A DNA stretch of 32,495 bases from Sulfurisoma sp. (GTDB taxonomy: Bacteria > Pseudomonadota > Gammaproteobacteria > Burkholderiales > Rhodocyclaceae): assembly GCA_030691075.1 (NCBI GenBank), contig JAUYFI010000094.1, positions 1 through 32,495 on the forward strand. The letters are read 5' to 3'. The notes below the pieces were generated by a model. That model was not told the origin of the DNA and did no database searches. It was given only the letters and a program-made list of their open reading frames with translations. Shown here piece after piece: positions 2 to 27,090 of the stretch. Made by a program: the position numbers and the translations under genes. How positions within the stretch are numbered: position 1 is the stretch's first letter; every line of letters begins with the position of its first letter.

Positions 2-1516
2 CATGCCACCAGCAAGATCGGCAGCCTCGACGACCTCGAGCGCATCGCCAGCTACGGCTTTCGCGGCGAGGCGCTGGCATCGATCGCCTCGGTCGCGCGC
101 ATGAGCATCGCCAGCCGGGTGGCCGACGACAGCCACGCCTGGAAGATCGACGCCGCCACGGCGCGCGTTGCCCCGGCCGCGCTGGCCGCCGGCACCGTCA
201 TCGAGGTCGCCGATCTCTATTTCAACACCCCGGCGCGGCGCAAGTTCCTCAAGTCGGAGGCCACCGAGTACGGCCACTGCGACGAGGTGCCGCGGCGCAT
301 GGCGCTGGCCCGGCCCGACGTCGCCTTCACGCTGTCGCACAACAAGTCGGCGAAGCTGCGCCTGAGCGCCAGCGACGCCGCGCGCCGCGCCCGCGAAATC
401 CTCGGCGACGAATTCTTTGCCCACAACCGCGCCGTCGAGGTTGCCGCCGGCCCGCTGCGGCTGGCCGGCTTCGCCGCCCTGCCGGCCTATTCCAAGGCCT
501 CGCGCGACGCCCAGTATTTCTTCGTCAATGGCCGCTTCGTCCGCGACAAGCTGCTCGCCCACGCCGCGCGCGAGGCCTATGCCGACATCCTCCACGGCGC
601 GCGCCATCCGGCCTGGTGTCTGTTCCTCGAACTCGATCCGGCCGGCGTCGACGTCAATGTCCATCCGGCCAAGACCGAGGTGCGATTCCGCGACGGCCGC
701 GGCGTGCACCAGTTCGTCTTCCACGCACTGCAACGCGCCCTGGCGCGGCCCATCGGCGATACCGCCGCCACGCCGACCGTGATTGCAGCGGTGCCAGCCA
801 TCCCTGCTTATCGTCAGGCAGCGCTTGGCGTCGGCGAACCCGCCGCGCAGCCCTATCTCGATTTTGCCCGTGCCGCCTTCGCTGATGCCGCCGCCCCGCC
901 AGCGCCGACTTTTTCCGAAGGCGCGGGCGCGGCACCACCGCTCGGCCATGCCATCGCCCAGCTCCACGGCATCTACGTCCTCGCCCAGAACGCGGCGGGC
1001 CTGGTGCTGGTCGACATGCATGCGGCCCACGAGCGCATTCTTTACGAGAAGCTCAAGAACGCCGTCGAGGCCGGCCCGCCGGCCAGTCAACCGTTGCTGA
1101 TCCCGGTGCTGATGTCGGCAAGCCGCCTCGAACTCGCCACCGCCGAGGAGCATCGCGACACCCTCGTCCGCCTTGGCTTCGAGGTCGGCGCCGCCGGGCC
1201 GCGACAGATCAAAGTGCGCGCGGCGCCGGCACTGGTCGCCGGCGGCGACGTCGCCGCCCTTCTGCGCGCGCTGCTCGCCGATCTGCGCGAACAGCCGGCC
1301 AGCCGCGTGCTGGAAGCTCGTCGCAACGAACTGCTCGCCACCATGGCCTGCCACGGCGCCGTGCGCGCGCACCGCAGCCTGACGCTGCCCGAGATGAACG
1401 CGCTGCTTCGCCAGATGGAGGCCACCGAGCGCGCCGACCAGTGCAACCACGGCCGGCCGACCTGGGTGCGGCTGTCGATGACGGAGCTGGACCGGCTGTT
1501 CCTCCGTGGCCGATAA
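2..1516 (+). CDS. mutL: DNA mismatch repair protein MutL (5'-truncated)
   Basis: This is the C-terminal 504 residues of MutL, the mismatch-repair ATPase that links MutS recognition to strand incision. The frame is open from base 2, so the gene begins outside the window. Visible in order are the GHKL ATPase motif GFRGEAL (near residue 20 of the fragment), the transducer-domain segments YFNTPARRKFLKS and FVNGRFVRDK, a Pro/Ala-rich linker, and the C-terminal dimerisation/endonuclease domain. The endonuclease-type motifs are present as DMHAAHERILYE (Met replaces the usual Gln), MACHGAVRAH and CNHGRPTW. A nicking MutL is therefore likely, in agreement with an organism lacking MutH. The linker contains a copy of the dispersed 25-bp repeat, read as PPAPTF. 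The stop lies 11 bp inside miaA. Confidence 0.96.
   Translation, partial: HATSKIGSLDDLERIASYGFRGEALASIASVARMSIASRVADDSHAWKIDAATARVAPAALAAGTVIEVADLYFNTPARRKFLKSEATEYGHCDEVPRRMALARPDVAFTLSHNKSAKLRLSASDAARRAREILGDEFFAHNRAVEVAAGPLRLAGFAALPAYSKASRDAQYFFVNGRFVRDKLLAHAAREAYADILHGARHPAWCLFLELDPAGVDVNVHPAKTEVRFRDGRGVHQFVFHALQRALARPIGDTAATPTVIAAVPAIPAYRQAALGVGEPAAQPYLDFARAAFADAAAPPAPTFSEGAGAAPPLGHAIAQLHGIYVLAQNAAGLVLVDMHAAHERILYEKLKNAVEAGPPASQPLLIPVLMSASRLELATAEEHRDTLVRLGFEVGAAGPRQIKVRAAPALVAGGDVAALLRALLADLREQPASRVLEARRNELLATMACHGAVRAHRSLTLPEMNALLRQMEATERADQCNHGRPTWVRLSMTELDRLFLRGR
889..913 (+). repeat. Dispersed repeat copy 1 (mutL linker)
   Basis: This copy has the exact 17-base core CGCCAGCGCCGACTTTT and one mismatch in the eight bases before it. 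It lies in the variable linker of MutL, where it is read as PPAPTF. Confidence 0.85.
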
Positions 1517-2477
1517 GCTGCCGCCAGCCATTTTTTTGCTGGGGCCCACCGCCAGCGGCAAGACCATGCTGACGCTGGCGGCGGCCGAACGGTTCCCCGT
1601 CGAAATCGTCAGCGTCGATTCAGCACAGGTATTCCGCGACATGGACATCGGCACGGCCAAGCCAGATGCCGAAACGCTGCACCGCTTCCCTCATCACCTG
1701 ATCGACCTGATCACGCCCGAGGAACGCTACTCGGCGGCGCGCTTTCGCGAAGACGCTCTGCGCGCGATGGCCGAGATCACGGCACGCGGGCACGTCCCGC
1801 TGCTGACGGGCGGCACCATGCTTTACTTCAAGGCACTACGCGAAGGGCTGGCCGATCTGCCGCAGGCCGATGCCGCGTTGCGCGCGCGCATCGACGCCGA
1901 GGCGACGGAGCGCGGCTGGCCGGCGCTGCACGCCGAACTGACGCAAAGCGACCCGGCGACCGCCGCGCGACTGGCACCGACCGACGCCCAGCGCATCCAG
2001 CGCGCGCTCGAGGTGATTCGCCTGACCGGGCGGCCGCTCGGTGATTACTTCGCGGAACAGGCGCGAGGGTCACCGGGCGCCCCGCCCTACCGCATGCTGC
2101 CGCTCGCGCTTTTCCCGTCTGATCGCGCCTGGCTGCACCAGCGCATCGCCCGGCGCTTCGACGAGATGCTGGCTGGGGGGCTGGTCGGCGAGGTCGAGTA
2201 CCTGCGCGGGAAATATCGGCTTGATGCAGGATTGCCCTCGATGCGCAGCGTCGGCTACCGCCAGGCATGGGAGATGCTCGAGGGTACGTTGCCGGCGGCG
2301 GACCTGCCCGATCGCGGGGTGTTCGCGACACGCCAACTGGCCAAGCGCCAGATCACCTGGCTCAGGTCGATGCCCGACATGGAATTGCTCGATTGCCTCG
2401 ACCCCGGACTCGAAGCGAGGATTTTTAATAGAATCGAGGTTTTTCTCGCCGCCGCCGCGGCATTGGCCGACGCATGA
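1506..2477 (+). CDS. miaA: tRNA dimethylallyltransferase MiaA
   Basis: MiaA transfers a dimethylallyl group to N6 of A37 in tRNAs that read codons starting with U. The 323-residue length is usual for the family. Near the N terminus are the P-loop GPTASGKT and the signature DSAQVFRDMDIGTAKP, followed by TGGTMLYFKAL. The start is a GTG that overlaps the end of mutL by 11 bp, which suggests translational coupling; no good ATG lies before the P-loop. The mutL-miaA pairing is common in proteobacteria. The stop overlaps the next start as ATGA. Confidence 0.96.
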   Translation: MADKLPPAIFLLGPTASGKTMLTLAAAERFPVEIVSVDSAQVFRDMDIGTAKPDAETLHRFPHHLIDLITPEERYSAARFREDALRAMAEITARGHVPLLTGGTMLYFKALREGLADLPQADAALRARIDAEATERGWPALHAELTQSDPATAARLAPTDAQRIQRALEVIRLTGRPLGDYFAEQARGSPGAPPYRMLPLALFPSDRAWLHQRIARRFDEMLAGGLVGEVEYLRGKYRLDAGLPSMRSVGYRQAWEMLEGTLPAADLPDRGVFATRQLAKRQITWLRSMPDMELLDCLDPGLEARIFNRIEVFLAAAAALADA

Positions 2478-26521: not shown

Positions 26522-26595
26522 GAATGGTTGTGACATGAGACGCAGCAACAGGGTGGATTATTCCCTACGATATACAAAAAAATCCAGTCGACAGA

Positions 26596-27090
26596 TCAAA
26601 AGTCGGCGCTGGCGGCACGCCAATGACCGGACTTGCCGCCCATTTTCTCCAGCAGGCGGATCTCGCCCATGACCATGCCGCGGTCGACAGCCTTGCACAT
26701 GTCGTAAATGGTGAGCAGGGCGACCGATACGGCGGTCAGCGCCTCCATCTCGACGCCGGTGCGGCCGACGGTTTGCGCCGTGACTTCGCAATTAACGCAA
26801 CCGGTGGCTTCGTCGATGACGAACTCCGCCGCGACCCGCGTCAGCGGGAGCGGATGGCACAGCGGGATCAGTTCGGAGGCGCGCTTGGCCGCCTGGATCG
26901 CCGCGATGCGGGCGATGCCGAGCACGTCGCCCTTCTCGGCGTCGCCGGCCTTGATCAGCGCCAGGGTGGCCGGCTGCATGCGGATGGTTCCGGCGGCGCG
27001 GGCGCGGCGCTCGGTCTCGCTCTTGCCGCCGACATCGACCATGTGCGCCTGGCCGGCGCCGTCGAAATGGGTCAAGCCGTCGTGTGACAT
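26596..27090 (-). CDS. moaC: Cyclic pyranopterin monophosphate synthase MoaC
   Basis: MoaC acts with MoaA to form cPMP in molybdenum-cofactor synthesis. The 164-residue protein has the family motifs MVDVGGKSETERRARA, ELIPLCHPLPLT and GVEMEALTAVSVALLTIYDMCKAVDRGM. The expected end MGGKSGHWRA is followed by ASADF, encoded by a copy of the dispersed repeat that directly abuts the stop codon. The gene is co-directional with, and 108 bp upstream of, soxY, and divergent from the BepA-like gene. Confidence 0.95.
   Translation of the reverse strand: MSHDGLTHFDGAGQAHMVDVGGKSETERRARAAGTIRMQPATLALIKAGDAEKGDVLGIARIAAIQAAKRASELIPLCHPLPLTRVAAEFVIDEATGCVNCEVTAQTVGRTGVEMEALTAVSVALLTIYDMCKAVDRGMVMGEIRLLEKMGGKSGHWRAASADF
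26598..26622 (-). repeat. Dispersed repeat copy 10 (moaC 3' end)
   Basis: The 17-base core is exact and three extension bases differ. It encodes the last residues of MoaC (AASADF), and the last T of the core is the first base of the moaC stop codon. Confidence 0.85.

Follow-up and report, generated by a model that had tools for sequence, protein, structure and literature searches.

DNA uptake sequences have, to our knowledge, been described in two bacterial families whose members mostly live with hosts, the Neisseriaceae and the Pasteurellaceae, so that ideas about the origin and purpose of such sequences rest on two cases. The Pasteurellaceae uptake signal sequence (USS) is quoted as AAGTGCGGT in PMC1852404; the neisserial DNA uptake sequence (DUS) is read by the pilin ComP. 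Here we compare with these systems a dispersed repeat of the family Rhodocyclaceae, which came to light in contig JAUYFI010000094.1 of Sulfurisoma sp. (the window, meaning the whole stretch of 32,495 nucleotides). The original prediction, made from the letters of the window, had listed ten copies of a 25-bp repeat and proposed an uptake-type signal. We put at about three in four the probability that this repeat is a set of copies of a genome-wide, two-part, 25-bp motif working as a DNA uptake sequence. Genome comparisons lend support to the proposal: the motif occurs in hundreds of copies, provides the top over-represented word, occupies sites shared between orthologous genes, and is gained and lost at single positions.

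A genome-wide two-part motif

The draft genome of this Sulfurisoma sp. (G000; 3.39 Mb in 193 contigs, 90% complete) contains 259 exact copies of the 17-mer CGCCAGCGCCGACTTTT, 138 forward and 121 reverse, and none of its reversed control. In the window, 11 matches with at most 3 mismatches lie on both strands, compared with a mean of 0.33 and a maximum of 3 in 100 shuffles. A chance origin of the repeat was rejected on these shuffle counts and on the reversed-control counts in the G000 sample described below. The full motif is about 25 bp long, CGCCGTnnCGCCAGCGCCGACTTTT, and carries about 37 bits. An alignment of 35 distinct G000 copies, picked by a 16-bp core, reads CGCCGT[GC][TC]CGCCAGCGCCGACTTTT: the CGCCGT positions hold 1.16 to 2.0 bits each, two loose positions come next, and the sequence outside the 25 bp is near random on both sides. 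The eight bases before the core, noted at the outset as related between copies, are thus a true part of the motif.

The motif set is sharply separate from background. In a 398-kb sample of G000 (365.6 kb plus the window), sites with 0, 1, 2, 3 and 4 mismatches of 22 number 26, 24, 11, 12 and 5, with no reversed-control site in any of these classes; counts fall to control level from five mismatches on (8 versus 4 in the control at five, 14 versus 25 at six). A position matrix finds 90 sites in this sample that score above every reversed-control site, equivalent by extrapolation to about 770 in a whole genome. GCCGT and GACTTT stand exactly 12 bases apart at 46 sites in G000, against 0 or 1 site at each other spacing from 6 to 19, and this distance is likewise exact in G130, G013, G026, G066 and G048, where the spacings from 6 to 11 and from 13 to 19 have 0 to 2 sites. 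When 12-mers are ranked against an order-4 Markov model, counting a word as motif with one mismatch allowed, the motif supplies 15 of the top 20 words in G000, 17 of 20 in G071, and all 7 of 7 in both G041 and G066. The two checks put forward with the original prediction, a genome-wide 17-mer count and a comparison with a Markov model, both came out in its favor. Neither a scarcity of copies elsewhere nor their restriction to one island was found in G000, where they lie on many contigs; a single mobile island had been judged unlikely from the window, and this judgment holds.

Distribution among relatives

Among 199 genomes of the family, 21 have 150 to 807 copies (at most 3 mismatches), the next has 42, and the rest have 0 to 21. 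In 399 genomes drawn from the order, only G000, G003, G022 and G130, four carriers from this same family, have many copies, and all others have 6 or fewer; a search for the exact 16-mer in 121 relatives gives the same picture of carriers. In a named sequence collection, the matches listed belong mostly to Rhodocyclaceae and to genera such as Sulfuritalea, Sulfurisoma and Rugosibacter, and some stand under Thiobacillus, Burkholderiaceae, Gammaproteobacteria or unplaced beta labels (metagenome bins); from these labels we take the family of the carriers to be Rhodocyclaceae. The cultured Sulfurisoma sediminicola BSN1 is among the matches and has the exact motif. The two-part form GCCGT-n12-GACTTT was counted in 398 relatives. 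It reaches 63 to 677 copies in 34 genomes (reversed control, 0 to 7), all of one family and spread over ten genera (g1, g2, g9, g11, g20, g24, g39, g46, g64, and g66); the remaining 364 genomes have 0 to 26 matches, where the reversed control reaches up to 22.

Carriage is patchy within genera. In g11, G203 has 5 copies compared with 366 to 459 in G013, G123, G170, G593 and G613, and in g66, G197 has 63 compared with 2 to 26 in the other genomes. A two-protein tree of 24 genomes, many of whose inner nodes are weak, places all main-dialect carriers in one fully supported group, together with G032 and G178, which are non-carriers, and G026, a weak carrier; G013 falls outside this group. The distribution is best explained by common ancestry followed by losses and change of dialect, and transfer is a possible alternative.

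Some genomes with few copies hold them in clusters: five of nine in G133 lie within 41 kb (C1:1461266-1502244, part of it in locus L580), and seven of ten in G178 lie within 334 kb (C1:1672223-2005931). These clusters look like DNA received from a carrier. G279, from a different family (f38), has 18 two-part matches, including three perfect main-dialect copies and some of the g11 type, and is possibly a recipient from two dialect groups.

The exact motif was found in only 90 stretches of a viral collection of 2.9 million contigs, mostly as single copies. This scarcity fits what is expected of a self-mark, with the caveat that the hosts are also rare in that collection. It bears as well on the idea that the sequence specificity is real and that the motif accumulates because another vehicle (a gene transfer agent, vesicles, or conjugation) favors DNA that carries it. 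Any sequence-selective transfer would account for all the evidence of biased exchange, and a recognizable ComEA is missing from most carriers tested (see below); however, we know of no transfer agent with such a motif, and the viral contigs offer few copies, so we regard this explanation as unlikely.

Dialects

The motif varies in a lineage-specific manner among the sampled genomes, even between close relatives. In logos built from sampled stretches, G000, G011 and G041 have CGCCGTnnCGCCAGCGCCGACTTTT in common; G071 has a loose T tail, and G130 has TGCCGT, with T in 99% of 81 sites. Small samples gave CGCTAGCG for G002, from the genus of G000 (T in 71% of 17 sites), CAGCGTCGAC for G048 (T in 93% of 15 sites), and CACCAG in half of 23 sites for G066. 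G013, also sampled lightly, is poor in the main dialect and has its own top words (AAAGTCAGTCCC and neighbors). The form found in G013 and G123, CGCCGT-n10-CTGACTTTT, has 17 sites in 108 kb and 1 in the reversed control; these sites were searched with the words GCCGT and GACTTT, and the C and the T that precede GACTTT at 17 of 17 sites each are outside the search words. A motif carried by relatives and seen at sites in their orthologous genes agrees with what had been expected from the window; a two-part signal of about 25 bp with lineage dialects in ten genera goes beyond that single-window view.

In the g11 dialect (loci L533-L535, L263, L578, and L579), GCCGT and CTGA, the two halves of the neisserial GCCGTCTGAA, stand 10 bases apart, possibly by chance.

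Placement relative to genes and replication

Placement was analyzed for sites with at most 4 mismatches of 23, on genes called with our own script instead of a standard gene finder. Coding sites make up 56 of 76 in G000, 38 of 66 in G071, and 57 of 69 in G130, or 151 of 211 in total, where 91 to 93% of bases are coding. The 19, 27 and 10 intergenic sites, respectively, amount to excesses of about 2.9-, 5.3- and 2.1-fold. Four of the six coding frames are favored, with 145 of 150 scored sites (reading KVGAGxTA, AVPPAPTF, RRxASADF, and KSALAxR) and 5 in the two other frames. For intergenic sites the median distance to stop codons is 17 nt, versus 98 nt to starts, and 19 of the 50 flanked by genes on both sides are between convergent genes, compared with 15.4% of the length of such spacers.

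One could take the repeats for ordinary intrinsic terminators that resemble each other through similar function. The motif has a T run at one end, its intergenic sites cluster after stop codons, and the pcnB-folK inverted pair at 8897-8970 of the window folds as RNA at -56.1 kcal/mol (z -6.93) into a strong hairpin with a T run at its end. On the other hand, only four close pairs occur among the 211 sites (all four inverted, with T runs outward), and most sites lie within genes on either strand. The coding copies refute terminator function as a general cause, and we find this explanation scarcely credible; some inverted pairs near gene ends are nevertheless predicted to double as transcription terminators.

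No significant bias of orientation along replichores was detected by strand versus GC skew (Fisher p 0.63 in G130 and 0.083 in G071), and a replication-linked site was rejected for want of significant strand polarity. Across 20 spaced stretches each of G130 and G071, counts are Poisson-like and show no macrodomain bias (chi-square p 0.62 and 0.51). These results bear on whether the motif could be the binding site of a chromosome-organizing or segregation protein, like matS or the SlmA and FtsK sites, spread by selection for binding. A long, exact, two-part motif present on both strands and in coding DNA would suit such a protein, as would the even spread over the sampled stretches. Against it stand not only the lack of macrodomain bias and of significant polarity but also the dialects that change between close relatives and the coexistence of carriers and non-carriers within a genus (G203 and its g11 congeners), which would be unusual for a core cell-cycle function. 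We hold a segregation site to be quite unlikely.

Origin of the sites

The site in panC (11297 in the window) is ungapped in 10 of 10 aligned orthologues and has 2 to 5 mismatches of 22 in three congeners and 8 to 11 in seven other genera. More generally, 56 comparisons were made for 30 coding sites at loci not selected for the motif; 33 are ungapped, with the motif kept in 13, intermediate in 5, and absent in 15. Gain and loss at single positions, suggested with the original prediction as something to look for, is seen among relatives, and it comes without unit-length insertion. A larger set (91 comparisons, 48 of 132 sites, including loci chosen for the motif) was used only for examples of sites common to several genera that carry the local dialect letter.

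The other 23 of the 56 comparisons are gapped, versus 37 of 313 random coding windows. This excess suggests that the changes behind some sites were larger than point mutations, and point mutation alone may not explain all sites. For neisserial DUS, too, PMC2397512 reports that sites lie in permissive places and that many new ones diverge too far to have come from point mutation. In none of the 56 comparisons did a target lack 20 to 30 bases at the site, although very long gaps could break a local alignment and escape this comparison. Taken together, the gap pattern and the absence of such deficits point to sites in indel-tolerant places that were not inserted as units.

The gaps are also what could be expected if a short mobile element, similar to repetitive extragenic palindromes (REP) or miniature inverted-repeat transposable elements (MITE), inserted copies of itself. 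Motif copies can indeed belong to a larger repeat: at four places in G022 (loci L574-L577, on C1 near 644, 776, 832, and 1841 kb), copies form short arrays that have inverted arms and a spacing of 54 or 108 bp, and the 54-bp unit, a motif with inverted partner arms, is apparently a larger repeat built from the motif. Yet no relative shows the deficit that insertion would leave, the flanks of the 35 copies share nothing, the panC site has no gap in any orthologue, and the sites are mostly single, frame-specific coding positions. A mobile element is in our view very improbable.

A putative uptake sequence and its candidate receptor

Copy number, the 12-bp architecture, dialects, restriction to one family, permissive placement, even spread, the lack of significant polarity, and the lack of unit insertion together form the pattern of biased uptake. 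According to the uptake explanation, the motif would be a self-mark: in natural transformation, cells would use it to bind DNA of their own kind and bring it in. The motif would be preferred by a DNA receptor on the cell surface, for which a ComP/PilE-type or FimT-type minor pilin of type IV is the most likely candidate; imported fragments that bear it would recombine more often; and repeated biased exchange of this kind would create and maintain copies wherever a protein or a gap between genes tolerates them, as a molecular drive. If the preference of the receptor shifted, the genome would drift to a new dialect. The two conserved ends, about two helical turns apart, suggest a receptor touching both.

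The machinery for transformation is present in part. Of 40 genomes tested, 39 have ComEC, among them all 21 carriers with at least 150 copies. G000 has 19 type IV pilin-like N termini, and one 160-aa pilin matches the ComP_DUS profile (PF16732) with 33.6 bits versus a cut-off of 27.3; its gene adjoins FimT-like and PilW-like genes. In 30 loci read, a pilin cluster of this kind, whose members we take, partly from Pfam, to be PilE-like, FimT-like and PilW-like, occurs in carriers and non-carriers alike. The ComEA profile TIGR00426 scores over its cut-off in 6 of 40 genomes, and PF12836 further matches long frames (about 770 to 1,226 codons) that are presumably Tex-like given their size; neither profile found ComEA in G000. 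Thus, of the competence genes that the original prediction had looked forward to, ComEC, type IV minor pilins and a ComP-like pilin are there and comEA was not found. A receptor identified by presence or absence was rejected, as ComP_DUS pilins, ComEC and ComEA all fail to separate carriers from other genomes.

The receptor is the weakest part of the case for uptake, and several observations weigh against the uptake explanation. ComEC is no less common in non-carriers. ComP_DUS pilins were found in 185 of the 199 genomes of the family whatever the copy number, so that their presence is no marker of carriers, and the carriers G002 and G048 have no match to that profile. The ComP_DUS pilin of G000 is only 43% identical to that of its congener G001 (62% to that of G011). 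Short-frame ComEA matches occur in just 2 of 21 carriers (G066 and G196), and also in G021, G025, G028, G030 and G059. Other points concern the motif itself: in G130 a different dispersed repeat (AATGGACAATCTGGGTT and others) outranks it and leaves it only 6 of the top 20 12-mers; G130 also has a slight antisense bias (19 versus 37, p 0.022); G071 has the trend in polarity given above; the density, about 1 per 4-5 kb, is under that reported for Neisseria DUS; and gapped sites are in excess.

Even so, on balance we favor the view that Rhodocyclaceae would be a third family with an uptake-sequence system of its own, not related to the systems of the Neisseriaceae and Pasteurellaceae: a two-part GCCGT-12-GACTTT in at least six dialects across ten genera of environmental bacteria, with a receptor that reads the two ends across a constant helical distance, and usable as a map of gene exchange in sediments and groundwater. 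If so, this third case, in free-living betaproteobacteria, has carrier, non-carrier and variant relatives that allow comparative tests of selfish drive, genome repair and species barriers; the bacteria themselves, largely uncultured, are likely transformable; and copies that have strayed into other genomes are readable footprints of gene flow between genera. A literature search found no paper with the motif (as 15- to 16-mers, both strands), with a DNA uptake sequence in Rhodocyclaceae, or with natural transformation in Sulfuritalea; subscription papers and preprints were mostly outside this search, so an earlier report is possible.

Copies in the window

All ten copies listed in the original prediction were recovered, along with an eleventh (Table 1). 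Their sites were right; the starts given for the plus strand include the 8-bp prefix, so that the core of the first copy begins at 897 and not at 889. Gene assignments confirm that copies lie on both strands, in and between unrelated genes: mutL, the pcnB end, the pcnB-folK gap, panC, two sugar-epimerase genes, a DUF4143 ATPase gene, an open reading frame (ORF) without Pfam domains, the gap 3' of a 5'-nucleotidase_C (soxB-like) gene, and the moaC end. The weak copy at 20965 has no counterpart at the same place in any of 8 aligned genomes. A 4-mismatch match at 6044 was discarded as chance because relatives have 6 to 12 mismatches there.

Apart from the motif, positions 12225-12512 of the window match, at 70% identity, a portion of the intact DUF4143 ATPase gene (18933-20123) and are probably a decayed relative.

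Table 1. Positions of the motif copies in the window, with their strand, mismatches and setting
Feature	Position	Strand	Mismatches	Setting
Motif copy	889..913	+	1 of 23 scored positions	Within mutL, between its two Pfam domains
Motif copy	8897..8921	-	1	pcnB 3' end; left arm of inverted pair
Motif copy	8946..8970	+	1	4 nt past pcnB stop; right arm of inverted pair; kept in congeners G001, G002, G003
Motif copy	11297..11321	-	3	Within panC; near-motif in congeners only
Motif copy, absent from the original prediction	14163..14187 (core 14171-14187)	+	2	Antisense within epimerase gene
Motif copy	14337..14361	+	2	Same epimerase gene as copy 14163..14187
Motif copy	16792..16816	+	0 (perfect)	Antisense within GDP-mannose-dehydratase-like gene
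Motif copy	18948..18972	-	0 (perfect)	Close to 3' end of DUF4143 ATPase gene
Weak motif copy	20965..20989	+	3	Within Pfam-less ORF
Motif copy	22251..22275	+	1	Between two convergent genes, 5 nt from soxB-like gene end
Motif copy	26598..26622	-	2 of 23 positions	moaC last codons; kept in congeners G001, G002, G003

Comparison with known systems

Chi, the FtsK-orienting polar sequences (KOPS) and matS are dispersed motifs of 8 to 13 bp that also lie in coding DNA; Chi and KOPS are polar along the replichore, and matS is limited to the terminus. The Rhodocyclaceae motif differs from them in its length of about 25 bp, its lack of significant polarity, and its even spread. REP elements, their bacterial interspersed mosaic elements (BIME) and MITE are short and have many copies, some as inverted pairs, but they are mostly intergenic and inserted as units, whereas the Rhodocyclaceae motif is mostly coding and unit-length insertion was not seen in our comparisons.

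Pasteurellaceae USS, of which a longer extended form exists, are unrelated in sequence and family; as far as the available descriptions go, they are likewise abundant self-marks in coding DNA and terminators. Neisseriaceae DUS, as described in PMC3630211 and PMC2397512, share several features with the motif: they have hundreds of copies or more, mostly in genes and in permissive regions, with inverted pairs as terminators; their dialects follow phylogeny, and their sites are conserved while neighboring sequence diverges. The Rhodocyclaceae motif starts with GCCGT as the neisserial GCCGTCTGAA does, and this shared word may be due to chance. It differs in its length of about 25 bp, compared with 10 to 12 bp for DUS, in its two parts held 12 bp apart, in its information content of about 37 bits, and in its fewer copies in G000 (about 770, extrapolated). 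The conserved columns of the main dialect (logos of G000, G071, G130, and others) have no CTG core, whereas the g11 dialect does hold CTGA.

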